Of a stretch of 64,000 nucleotides of DNA, positions 28,784-59,128 are shown in pieces. The number at the start of each line of letters is the position of its first letter. The stretch's first letter is position 1. The stretch comes from Hymenobacter latericoloratus (GTDB lineage: Bacteria; Bacteroidota; Bacteroidia; Cytophagales; Hymenobacteraceae), in contig NZ_JACHNV010000005.1 in assembly GCF_014199535.1 (NCBI RefSeq), positions 1 to 64,000 on the forward strand, read 5' to 3'. The notes under the pieces were generated by a model, which did not search any database, was not told the origin of the DNA, and worked only from the letters and a program-made list of their open reading frames with translations. The translations under genes and the position numbers were made by a program.

Positions 28784-28874
28784 GTCATGCTGAGCTAGTC
28801 GAAGCATCTCTACCGCTCCGTCCTCACAATTGGGGTAGCCAGAGGTAGAGATGCTTCGACCAGCTCAGCATGAC
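28784..28874. repeat. 91-bp palindromic repeat, 31-bp arms
   Basis: The arms at 28,784-28,814 and 28,844-28,874 are inverted copies with one mismatch. They begin GTCATGCTGAGC and continue through TCGAAGCATCTCTACC, with a 29-base loop. It has the look of a non-autonomous dispersed repeat (MITE-like) and contains an ATG (28,851) in frame with the next gene, though I prefer a later start. Confidence 0.8.
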
Positions 28875-30240: not shown

Positions 30241-32622
30241 ATGAAACGCGCTTTTAAGGTTCTTCTGGGGGTAGTGGCGTTCCTGGCGTTGGCCGGGGGC
30301 CTCGACCTGCTTTTCCCGCTGCCGCCTACCCCCCGGTACTCGCCCATTGTGCTGGCCGCCGATGGCTCGGTGCTGCATGCCTACCTCAACCCCACCCAGA
30401 AGTGGCGGATGAAAACCGAGCTGCGCGAGATTACGCCGGTGCTGCGCAAAGCCATTCTGGAAAAGGAAGACCGGTGGTTTCGGTGGCACTTTGGGGTGAA
30501 CCCGGTGGCACTGGTGCAGGCCGCCGCCCGCAACCTGTTTGGCACGGGCCGCACCACGGGGGCCAGCACCATTACCATGCAGGTGGCGCGGCTGCTGGAA
30601 CCCAAGGAGCGCACCTTCGGCAACAAGCTACTGGAAATGCTGCGCGCTACCCAACTGGAGCTGCATTACAGCAAGGACGAGATTTTGCAGCTTTATCTGA
30701 ACCTGGTGCCTTACGGCGGCAACATGGAGGGCGTGAAATCGGCCGCCCTGCTCTACTTCCAGCAAACGCCCGACTACCTCTCCCTGGCCCAGACCGTCAC
30801 GCTGGCTATCATCCCGAACCGGCCCAGGGGCCTGGTGCTGGGCAAGAACAACGCGGCCGTGCTACAGGAGCGCAACCGGTGGCTGAAGCGGTTCGGCGAG
30901 GCCGGGTTATTTCCGAAAGAAGAGGTAGCCGACGCCCTGCTGGAGCCCTTGGACGTGCAGCGCCACCCGGCCCCCACCCTGGCTCCCCACCTTTCGCGGC
31001 GGCTGGTGCGGCAGTTCCCGGGCCAGGCCATCATCCGGAGCAGCTTGCAGCGCAGCAAGCAGGCCCGGGCCGAGGACCTGACGCTGGGCTACGTGCGCCG
31101 CCTCCGGGAATTGGGCATCAGCCAGGCCGCCGTGCTGGTGGTGAATAACCGTACCCGGCAGGTGGAGGCCTACGTGGGCTCGGCCGATTTTCGCGACTTT
31201 GGCAGCCAGGGCCAGAACGATGGGGTAGTGGCCGTCCGCTCGCCAGGTAGCACGCTCAAGCCGTTTCTGTACGCCCTGGCTATGGACCGGGGCCTGGTTA
31301 CGCCCAAGCTGCTGCTGCCCGATGTGCCCACCAACTTCCAGGGCTACCGGCCCGAAAACTTCGATAAGCGCTGCAACGGCGAGGTAACGCTGGAACGCGC
31401 CTTGGCCTATTCGCTCAATATTCCGGCCGTGCGCGTGCTCAACCAACTGGGCGTGCCCGCCTTCACCGACAAACTCCGCCAGGCGGGCTTCCGAAACATT
31501 ACCCGTAACCGGGCCCGCCTGGGCCTGAGCAGCATTCTGGGCGGCTGCGGGGCGAGCCTGGAAGAGCTGACCAACCTGTACGTGACCCTGGCCGAGGGCG
31601 GGCAGTATAGTCCGCTGCAGTTTACCTCACCCCCCGGCCCCCTCCCCTTCAAAGAGGAAGAGCTAGGCGCGAGTAGCAGAACCAAATCGTCGGGCTCCCC
31701 CTCTCTGAAGGAGAGGGGGCCGGGGGGTGAGGCCCAACTTATTTCCCCCGCCGCCGCCTTCCTCACCACCGACATCCTGGCCCAGCTTACCCGCCCAGAT
31801 TTGCCCCTGGGCGCGGCCAGCAGCATGCGGCTGCCCAAAGTGGCCTGGAAGACCGGCACCAGCTACGGCCGCCGCGACGCCTGGAGCATTGGCTACAACC
31901 GGCAGTACACCATTGGGGTGTGGGTGGGCAACTTCAGCGGCCAGGGCAGCCCCGCCCTCACGGGCGCCGATGTGGCTACCCCCCTGCTGTTCGACCTGTT
32001 CAACGCCTTGGCCTACAACTCGCCCAACAACTGGTTTACGCCTCCGGCCGCGCTGGATTTCCGGCTGGTGTGCGCCGAATCGGGCCGGGTGCCGGGCGAG
32101 AACTGTCCGGATCAGGTTATCGACTATTTCCTGCCAGGCGTCAGCAACGGGCAGCGGTGCCAGCACCAGCGCGAGGTGCTGGTAGCAGCCGATGGCAGCA
32201 GCGCCTATTGCCGGGCCTGCGCGCCGGCGGCGGGGTACCGGCGGGAGCTGTTCCCGAACCTGCTGCCCGAGGTAGCGGCCTTTAAGGAGGCCCAGGGTAT
32301 CCCGTACCGCCGCCTGCCCCCGCACAACCCCCAATGCCAGCGGGTAAGCGGGGGCGCGGAGCGGGCCCCCACCATCACTTCCCCTACCCCCAACACCGAA
32401 TACGTGCTCAACCGCCACGAGCAGCAACAGCTGCTGCTCAGTTGCACCACGGGCAACGAGGTGCGCCAGGTGCACTGGTACGTCAACGACCGGTTTCTGC
32501 GCACGGCGGCGGCCACGGAGCGGGTCTTTTTCCGGCCGGCGCCCGGTCCGCTGAAAGTTTCCTGCGCCGACGACCACGGCCGCAACACCGATGTGCTGGT
32601 GACAGTAACCGAGCTGGAATAG
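30241..32622 (+). CDS. pbpC: Penicillin-binding protein 1C, bifunctional peptidoglycan synthase
   Basis: This 793-residue type II membrane protein polymerises and may cross-link peptidoglycan in the periplasm. An N-terminal anchor (FKVLLGVVAFLALAGGLDLLF) is followed by the glycosyltransferase domain with EKEDRWFRWHFG (Glu76), GASTITMQVARLLEP and the ELHYSKDEILQLYLNLVPYGG motif. The transpeptidase motifs are SPGSTLKPF (Ser337), YSLNIPAV and WKTGTSYG. The C-terminus has the cysteine-bearing PBP1C tail domain. The start at 30,241 fits the anchor. Between the SLN and KTG motifs a 36-codon palindromic insertion (31,625-31,732) is translated in frame as TSPPGPLPFKEEE...SLKERGPGGEA, replacing the short loop seen in relatives. 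It lies with the macroglobulin gene upstream. Confidence 0.93.
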   Translation: MKRAFKVLLGVVAFLALAGGLDLLFPLPPTPRYSPIVLAADGSVLHAYLNPTQKWRMKTELREITPVLRKAILEKEDRWFRWHFGVNPVALVQAAARNLFGTGRTTGASTITMQVARLLEPKERTFGNKLLEMLRATQLELHYSKDEILQLYLNLVPYGGNMEGVKSAALLYFQQTPDYLSLAQTVTLAIIPNRPRGLVLGKNNAAVLQERNRWLKRFGEAGLFPKEEVADALLEPLDVQRHPAPTLAPHLSRRLVRQFPGQAIIRSSLQRSKQARAEDLTLGYVRRLRELGISQAAVLVVNNRTRQVEAYVGSADFRDFGSQGQNDGVVAVRSPGSTLKPFLYALAMDRGLVTPKLLLPDVPTNFQGYRPENFDKRCNGEVTLERALAYSLNIPAVRVLNQLGVPAFTDKLRQAGFRNITRNRARLGLSSILGGCGASLEELTNLYVTLAEGGQYSPLQFTSPPGPLPFKEEELGASSRTKSSGSPSLKERGPGGEAQLISPAAAFLTTDILAQLTRPDLPLGAASSMRLPKVAWKTGTSYGRRDAWSIGYNRQYTIGVWVGNFSGQGSPALTGADVATPLLFDLFNALAYNSPNNWFTPPAALDFRLVCAESGRVPGENCPDQVIDYFLPGVSNGQRCQHQREVLVAADGSSAYCRACAPAAGYRRELFPNLLPEVAAFKEAQGIPYRRLPPHNPQCQRVSGGAERAPTITSPTPNTEYVLNRHEQQQLLLSCTTGNEVRQVHWYVNDRFLRTAAATERVFFRPAPGPLKVSCADDHGRNTDVLVTVTELE
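31625..31732. repeat. 108-bp palindromic element inserted in frame in pbpC
   Basis: The outer arms are about 35 bp, starting CCTCACCCCCCGGCCCCCT on the left and its inverse GGGGGCCGGGGGGTGAGG on the right, with about four mismatches. The element is exactly 108 bases, a multiple of three, so the gene frame survives. It adds about 36 residues at ~461-497 of the protein, in a loop between transpeptidase motifs. Confidence 0.8.
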
Positions 32623-34369: not shown

Positions 34370-34591
34370 GGCATGAGGGGGTGGGGGTGCGAGGTGTAAG
34401 GGTAGGAGGGTAGGAGGGTAGGAGGGCTTGAGGGTATAGCTTCTGATGACAAAGCCCTCCTACCCTCCTACCCTCCTACCCTCCTACCCTCACACCTCGC
34501 ACCCCCACACCTTCACACCTTCACGCCCTCCTACCCTGACACCCCCTACCCCCAAGCAACGCATCCTTTCCGCCGCTCCTGCTTACCCCAT
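34370..34591. repeat. GGGTAGGA / TCCTACCC inverted array
   Basis: A left arm at 34,381-34,428 (GTGGGGGTGCGAGGTGTAA, then three GGGTAGGA units) is mirrored by a right arm at 34,453-34,508 (four TCCTACCC units, then CACACCTCGCACCCCCAC). Each strand has four or more GGG tracts in a row, so each could form a G-quadruplex besides the hairpin. The arms differ by one unit, a sign of slippage. It lies between the TolC and adaptor genes. Confidence 0.8.
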
Positions 34592-59060: not shown

Positions 59061-59128
59061 CCTACCCCCTCTTTCATAGCAAAGCCCCGACAAGACTGCC
59101 GGGGCTTTGCTATGAAAGAGGGGGTAGG
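59061..59128. terminator. Perfect 29-bp inverted repeat, bidirectional terminator
   Basis: The arms at 59,061-59,089 and 59,100-59,128 are exact inverted copies (CCTACCCCCTCTTTC and onward to AAAGCCCCG) with a 10-base loop. It lies between the convergent desaturase and rmlD genes. The inner AAAGCCCCG core is like the other terminators here, and the outer bases add a long perfect extension. Confidence 0.8.

Follow-up and report, generated by a model that had tools for sequence, protein, structure and literature searches.

Introduction

Protein-coding palindromes occur in Rickettsia and also in Wolbachia and, to our knowledge, are known mainly from these bacteria. The Rickettsia palindromic elements (RPEs) are described, in the portions of the papers cited here, as palindromes of about 105-150 bp that form several families and lie in frame in unrelated conserved protein genes (PMC2229807, PMC10969869). 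The cited part of a further paper places them in a class of CGTC-tagged repeats that seemingly has no dedicated transposase, and reports repetitive extragenic palindromes (REPs) inside genes of several bacteria, with different REPs near one recB site in two Xanthomonas species (PMC3733652). Here we describe a 108-bp palindrome in frame in pbpC, the gene for the penicillin-binding protein PBP1c, in a 64,000-nt stretch of Hymenobacter latericoloratus DNA (the window; contig NZ_JACHNV010000005.1, positions 1 to 64,000). The palindrome belongs to a dispersed family, family A, whose copies recur in frame in protein genes and whose ends are common to elements carrying a DUF559 nuclease gene.

An earlier, sequence-only reading of the window had compared the palindrome with the RPEs. 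The comparison stands for behaviour, in which family A resembles them, being 108 bp long with terminal inverted repeats and lying in frame in several unrelated conserved genes. It fails for the CGTC tag, which the ends of family A lack; the host phylum is also another one, and the two are compared here by behaviour and end sequence. Two further differences are that, across the genus, different families come to fill one and the same loop and that the arms also bound a nuclease gene. REPs are likewise short palindromes, some of them intragenic, and in the part of PMC3733652 cited here the same palindromes bound a gene, that of the REP-associated tyrosine transposase (RAYT), in units such as REPtrons and TIRtrons; DUF559 may stand to family A as RAYT stands to REP. 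Family A, however, has no GTAG head, and the gene it bounds codes for a PD-(D/E)XK nuclease, not a Y1 transposase. Terminal inverted repeats, many copies and the lack of a gene of its own make family A similar to miniature inverted-repeat transposable elements (MITEs), although no target-site duplication was found and no classical parent transposon was identified. The DUF559 element, having the same ends, is a candidate autonomous relative with a hypothetical transposition activity.

We consider it likely that family A is a non-autonomous, MITE-like mobile palindrome whose distribution reflects permissive loops and selection. In this free-living genus, represented by 101 genomes, the PbpC and MetH loops are occupied in some genomes, empty in others and differently occupied in yet others, and nearest relatives differ. 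Environmental bacteria thus offer a setting in which to test new protein loops made by selfish DNA. Our searches of open-licence papers turned up no link of DUF559 to palindromic repeats, inverted repeats or mobility, and no report titled on palindromic repeats in Hymenobacter.

A palindrome in frame in pbpC

The element and its host gene are arranged as follows (window coordinates).

30241..32622, + strand: pbpC, the host gene (PBP1c: transglycosylase, transpeptidase, BiPBP_C), from ATG at 30241 to the stop at 32622
31603..31737, + strand: hypervariable transpeptidase loop, QYSPLQF...GGEAQ, an insertion hotspot; 45 amino acids (aa) here against about 18 aa in outgroups
31625..31732, + strand: palindromic element of family A, in frame in pbpC; 108 bp, coding for T-SPPGPL...KERGPGGEA
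31625..31663, + strand: left arm, 39 nt, the more degenerate arm
31664..31693, + strand: spacer, 30 nt, in the opposite orientation to the spacers of the PbpC copy in genome G073 and of the MetH copy in genome G000
31694..31732, + strand: right arm, 39 nt, within a 40-nt stretch that matches both arms of G000:C1:397645-398145 at 100%

G000 is the genome that bears the window element (5.04 Mb), and G073 is the nearest relative found, its PbpC being 94% identical.

The arms pair at 90% complementarity across the 30-nt spacer. The sequence-only reading was right about inverted arms and put their length at about 35 bp; we measured 39 nt. The RNA fold of 31622-31735 has an energy of -82.9 kcal/mol (z -9.4), and none of 200 shuffles was equally stable. 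The element has a hairpin score of 27; over the 64 kb, 1184 overlapping windows of 108 nt give a median of 6 and a 99th percentile of 12. Rfam gave no match at its gathering score within 31400-31950.

Pfam places Transgly, Transpeptidase and BiPBP_C domains in the pbpC product. With numbering that begins at the codon at 30244, the insert occupies residues 461-497 and is flanked by the invariant SLN (390-392) and KTG (536-538) motifs, so that arms, frame and domains all lie where an in-frame palindrome between SLN and KTG of a PBP1c gene had been proposed. The proposed length is also borne out: 108 bp make 36 codons, a multiple of three that is stop-free in the pbpC frame and adds about 36 residues. 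The stop-free frame alone is weak evidence, because copies of the family are as often stop-free as shuffled sequences. Among 28 family copies, between 6 and 18 were stop-free in each of the six frames, and the share in shuffles was 0.48-0.53. We reject the idea that the element specially avoids stops, as the open-frame share of these copies is like that of the shuffles.

An AlphaFold model of PbpC, built with an alignment of 38 sequences including its own, has a mean predicted local distance difference test score (pLDDT) of 81.5. The score falls below 50 at residues 468-494, inside the insert; this is the sole long stretch of the kind, the second comprising six residues (701-706). On this model a functional PbpC with an exposed extra loop is plausible. 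We think it most likely that the added residues serve no positive function.

Dispersal of family A

In G000 the window element gives 31 matches at 18 places, counting the element itself and both strands, and a 108-nt query taken from the G073 PbpC copy matched 94 of the 101 genomes of the genus. Copies lie in both intergenic and coding positions. This dispersal supports the earlier suggestion of a mobile palindrome tolerated in coding regions and is at odds with its alternative, an old domain with no copies elsewhere. The ends of the family are CCTCACC/GGTGAGG, and its arms, of about 40 nt, are GC-rich and each form a hairpin by themselves.

We read 12 loci in G000 and found arm pairs 108 to 501 bp across as well as single arms. 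Long frames are read through four of the 12, in PbpC, MetH and two AAA-type open reading frames (ORFs), one with an AAA domain (1006 codons) and one with AAA_11/AAA_12 (1016 codons), the latter traversed by a single arm. Two further copies, at the very start of a frame, were left out of this in-frame count. We also scored the 28 best-matching copies, and half of them traverse a frame that extends for 60 codons or more to either side. These 14 comprise two in PbpC, ten others that a Pfam scan placed in known families, and L296 and L300, which may be spurious. The Pfam hosts include methylmalonyl-CoA (MM-CoA) mutase in three species, at the same place, and PNKP in two species, together with a thiamine pyrophosphate (TPP) enzyme, a UvrD helicase and an ABC ATPase.

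A 91-bp palindrome at 28784-28874 (GTCATGCTGAGC...GCTCAGCATGAC) lies directly downstream of an alpha-2-macroglobulin-like frame in the window. Akin to it, TCATGCTGAGC/GTAGAGATGCTTCG-like sequence surrounds two family A copies in G000 (L007 and L009), and repeats therefore seem to nest in one another.

The PbpC loop as a recurrent landing site

As one of our six peptide patterns was taken from the insert, we based the loop counts on the 101 genus genomes drawn by the tool, of which 94 could be parsed. Loops of at most 24 aa were found in 26 of the 94, none palindromic in DNA at p<=0.005; loops of 25-32 aa in 14, one palindromic; and long loops, defined as 33 aa or more and ranging over 33-69 aa, in 54, with 39 palindromic. 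By peptide pattern the 54 long loops divide into 32 of type A, 18 of type B, two of type D, one of type C and one left unassigned. Type A loops are read in two frames, with starts at loop nt 22, 25 or 27. Type B is AT-rich, with the peptide NEELR...NSSFLIPHSS, and is itself dispersed, with 34-127 matches in seven of 13 genomes searched and none in the other six. Family A candidates are more numerous in genomes whose PbpC loop is of type A (median 36, against 16.5 in the others; p=0.003; these per-genome counts are first-look, unconfirmed copies). Seven genomes have no family A match, and type A is absent from the PbpC loop in all of them.

Seven genomes were not parsed. The loop of G007, read separately, is of type A, and G084 has no long palindrome-like loop. 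PbpC is cut by a contig end in G036, and no orthologue of PbpC was obtained from G066 or G088. In the remaining two, pbpC is broken at a repeat-like insert, by a stop in G029 (L198) and by a shifted frame in G065 (L200), as would be predicted for insertion that takes no account of frame. Beyond the genus, 18 PbpC matches cover the loop (residues 1 to 125/126); they are 402-411 nt long, with loops of about 17-20 aa, and two more that span nearly the whole query measure 414 and 390 nt. In one PbpC of metagenomic Bacteroidetes origin (L094) the loop is longer and looks like a repeat.

These counts bear on another view of the loop, as a low-complexity linker of PBP1c that is functional and under selection and in which palindromic DNA occurs incidentally. 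Even short loops vary, and S, P, G and K abound in many of the long ones, as they might in a linker of this kind. The same DNA family, however, also occurs in MetH, MM-CoA mutase and PNKP and outside frames, 39 of the 54 long loops are palindromic in DNA, the loop is disordered in the model, and 26 of the 94 parsed genomes manage with 24 aa or fewer. We regard a selected linker as very improbable.

The comparison of nearest relatives did not give the clean-edged absence that had been hoped for at PbpC. The site is occupied in G073, and about nine residues are missing relative to an 18-aa loop. The G073 copy lies in the same loop, 3 nt further on, with different flanking codons, and its spacer matches that of the window element at 20 of 30 central bases when inverted and at 8 of 30 when read directly. 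The spacer of the G000 MetH copy behaves in the same way (22 of 30 inverted, 8 of 30 direct). The inverted spacer and differing flanks of G073 suggest either an independent insertion or an inversion by recombination between the arms. Repeated words seen by eye on both sides of two loops (L052 and L057) are a possible target-site duplication.

In a PbpC tree from which the loop was left out, the repeat types interleave with loops of 17-19 aa. Fitch parsimony on 99 tips requires 35 changes of type (shuffled labels: mean 44, minimum of 500 shuffles 36) and 27 changes between occupied and empty (mean 33, minimum 25). There is some phylogenetic signal in the loop types and little in occupancy. The PbpC insertion is a recurrent landing site and not a one-off event.

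A second hotspot in the MetH linker

We joined the G000 flanks of the MetH copy into one query and searched the 101 genomes with it. MetH was continuous in 64 and in two pieces in 37, and in 35 extra sequence lay at roughly the same residue. Two genomes, G004 (L434) and G010 (L432), had a frame change without extra sequence, and G066 (L433) had extra, non-palindromic-looking sequence together with a frame change. These frame changes, near the linker, may be assembly errors, and the three genomes were left out of the parsed inserts, of which there were 34 from the 35. More than half (21 of 34) were more palindromic than all 50 of their shuffles, and by eye the inserts include A types in two frames as well as B types. 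Here a near-clean empty site was found for family A: the linker is empty in G073 (YEPRKL-PELPKA-TRLSGLEPF) and carries a full copy in G000.

The two loops together allow a different history to be weighed, in which a single ancestral insertion in the loop was followed by divergence and by gene conversion through the arms, so that what we see is exchange and not new insertion. The inverted spacers of G000 and G073 at the same site are what recombination between inverted arms would give, the tree changes lie below the shuffled mean, and MetH is occupied at one linker in as many as 35 genomes. Such a history accounts poorly for palindromes of types A, B, C and D in the same PbpC loop, interleaved with loops of 17-19 aa and with short loops in the outgroups. 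It also sits badly with the MetH linker, empty in G073 and occupied in G000, and with A-type starts at nt 22, 25 or 27, in two frames as judged by eye. We consider a single ancestral insertion rather unlikely.

DUF559 genes between family A arms

At G000:C1:397645-398145, a complete DUF559 gene is enclosed by 40-nt arms whose sequence is that of the window element's right end. Arms of this kind bound elements of about 500-700 bp that carry a gene for a DUF559 nuclease (PD-(D/E)XK, Vsr-like). The gene between the arms belongs to PF04480 by match, and one G000 DUF559 protein matches the endonuclease-like PDB entry 3hrl (E=1.4e-19), which together liken it to the DUF559/Vsr-like proteins. This G000:C1 element prolongs a PurQ-like GATase_5 frame: at L203 25-1836 the frame crosses a family A arm and continues into DUF559, and we read the same arrangement in ten more Hymenobacter loci; the shared frame suggests that PurQ may be produced as a nuclease fusion.

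We scored the best inverted repeat within 300 bp on either side of DUF559 genes, using stretches 20 kb away as controls. A score of at least 20 was reached by 25 of the 30 top loci and by 18 of 20 loci in a second sample picked from the listing, and by none of 20 controls; L205 and L208 were too short to score. Arms therefore bound 43 of the 50 loci; by eye, 36 are family A-like and seven are of another variant, mostly containing CTAG. Per genome, DUF559 counts correlate with family A candidate counts (rho 0.53, n=101; 0.43 after subtracting two arms per DUF559).

Y1_Tnp genes carry other palindromes

The short palindromes might instead be of REP type and be moved by Y1_Tnp (RAYT) proteins, with DUF559 as a passenger. 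G000 has three Y1_Tnp genes, 73 of the 101 genomes have matches, and Y1_Tnp counts also correlate with family A candidates (rho 0.44; partial correlations 0.50 and 0.40). Intragenic REPs are known as well, according to the part of PMC3733652 cited here. The Y1_Tnp loci themselves, however, carry other palindromes. No family A core lies within 1.5 kb of the three loci in G000. Flanking inverted repeats scored at least 20 in 16 of the 29 scored Y1_Tnp loci (L467-L495; four loci were too short to score), and none of the 19 arms inspected (score at least 14) is family A; they belong to different palindromes, a number of which have GTAG at one end or close to it. The ends of family A are CCTCACC/GGTGAGG and not GTAG, and the family occurs in some genomes without a Y1_Tnp match, such as G008, G010 and G026. 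We judge the REP-type explanation improbable.

The Hymenobacter Y1_Tnp genes and their own palindromes are likely to be REP-RAYT units. Our flank test thus also picks up units that look like REP-RAYT, with other sequences, and so separates them from family A. RAYT was rejected as the partner of family A on the grounds that Y1_Tnp loci carry other palindromes.

DUF559 beyond Hymenobacter

In a sample of the phylum, 78 of 148 genomes match PF04480. We fetched 20 cases in which DUF559 lies in a large frame, parsed 16 and checked six further.

L280, L281, L272, L273, L275-L277: DUF559 domains embedded in frame in the RecG, MetH and LeuRS proteins of other Bacteroidota

The RecG of G202 aligns to 1gm5 up to residue 515 and resumes at 519, and the roughly 149 extra residues contain DUF559; RecG of G183 also has DUF559 in frame. 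LeuRS of G179 has an extra block between query residues 534 and 697, and in LeuRS of G129 DUF559 lies at another place. DUF559 was also found in MetH of G135 and in a type ISP restriction enzyme of G236. The peptides flanking these domains, such as PSPQPSPSGRG and LPTGEDLGGAG, have by eye the look of decayed arms.

A nuclease domain in frame inside RecG, LeuRS and MetH recalls inteins and their homing endonucleases. The difference is that no Pfam splicing domain was found in the hosts scanned (E<=1e-5) and, as judged from the sequences, the insert seems to stay in the protein. At the phylum loci L235-L263 the flanking repeats are shorter, and many score close to shuffled sequence. On plasmids of other phyla we fetched ten DUF559 loci from 38 matching records: four have clear flanking inverted repeats (L284, L286, L290 and L293), three have two mirrored hairpins in the flanks and no clear arm pair (L285, L288 and L289), and in three the repeats are weak or absent (L287, L291 and L292).

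Together these cases may represent a new minimal class of mobile element, a DUF559 nuclease gene held in hairpin arms, read through in frame and invading permissive loops. The class would include full elements fused to or inside PurQ, RecG, LeuRS and MetH as well as short, nuclease-less palindromes such as that in PbpC; it would be intein-like without splicing, the host keeping the insert, and would extend to several phyla. We offer this tentatively and think it somewhat doubtful.

How the palindromes may spread

If family A is a MITE-like mobile palindrome, insertions would hit many places and many frames, blind to frame. Purifying selection would retain those that add harmless, disordered loops in frame, and a few permissive loops would thus look like hotspots, refilled after loss. 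Occupied sites may also swap spacers through their arms. More speculatively, spread might start with DUF559 cutting or nicking DNA. By analogy with REPs and RAYT, the DUF559 nuclease could mobilise and spread family A, with the short palindromes as its non-autonomous derivatives; we hold this to be possible, short of probable. DUF559 is nevertheless a concrete candidate enzyme, bounded by the same kind of ends, and mobilisation of the palindromes by it is directly testable.

DUF559 could equally be cargo, or a decayed gene, within inverted-repeat elements that another transposase moves. There are 14 genomes among the 101 without a DUF559 match, and 12 of them have family A. In Caulobacter a DNA-damage response was found to depend on VsrA, a DUF559 protein that the cited portion of PMC12907096 describes as a predicted mismatch-repair endonuclease. 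Cargo would be a less natural account of arms that bound 43 of 50 DUF559 loci, and of the DUF559 domains inside host enzymes in other families of the phylum, which suggest that DUF559 travels in the same in-frame way. A cargo role is quite possible.

A number of observations count against a mobile family A spread by DUF559. Those 12 genomes with family A and no DUF559 match are among them, and presence of DUF559 and presence of family A show no association across the genus (82, 5, 12, 2; p=0.25). The correlation of counts is not specific, because Y1_Tnp counts correlate too, and the related species that enter it are not independent. Arms around DUF559 are only weakly more similar to the PbpC arms of their own genome than to those of other genomes (mean rank fraction 0.41 over 22 loci). 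As for insertion itself, our sequence comparisons saw no transposition and established no target-site duplication, and between occupied and empty MetH DNA the target bases are replaced, not duplicated. Not all inserts are significantly palindromic: 15 of the 54 long PbpC loops and 13 of the 34 MetH inserts are not, and these may be decayed or result from ordinary loop growth. Finally, the tree changes are somewhat fewer than with shuffled labels, which suggests that some occupancy is probably inherited.

Other palindromes in the window

Two more palindromes lie elsewhere in the window. One, of 142 bp at 34374-34515, is made of tandem GAGGGTAGGAGGGTAGG-like units and lies downstream of a TolC-like gene. 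The other, at 59061-59128, is a near-perfect, terminator-like palindrome of 68 bp between CCTACCCCCTC and GAGGGGGTAGG.

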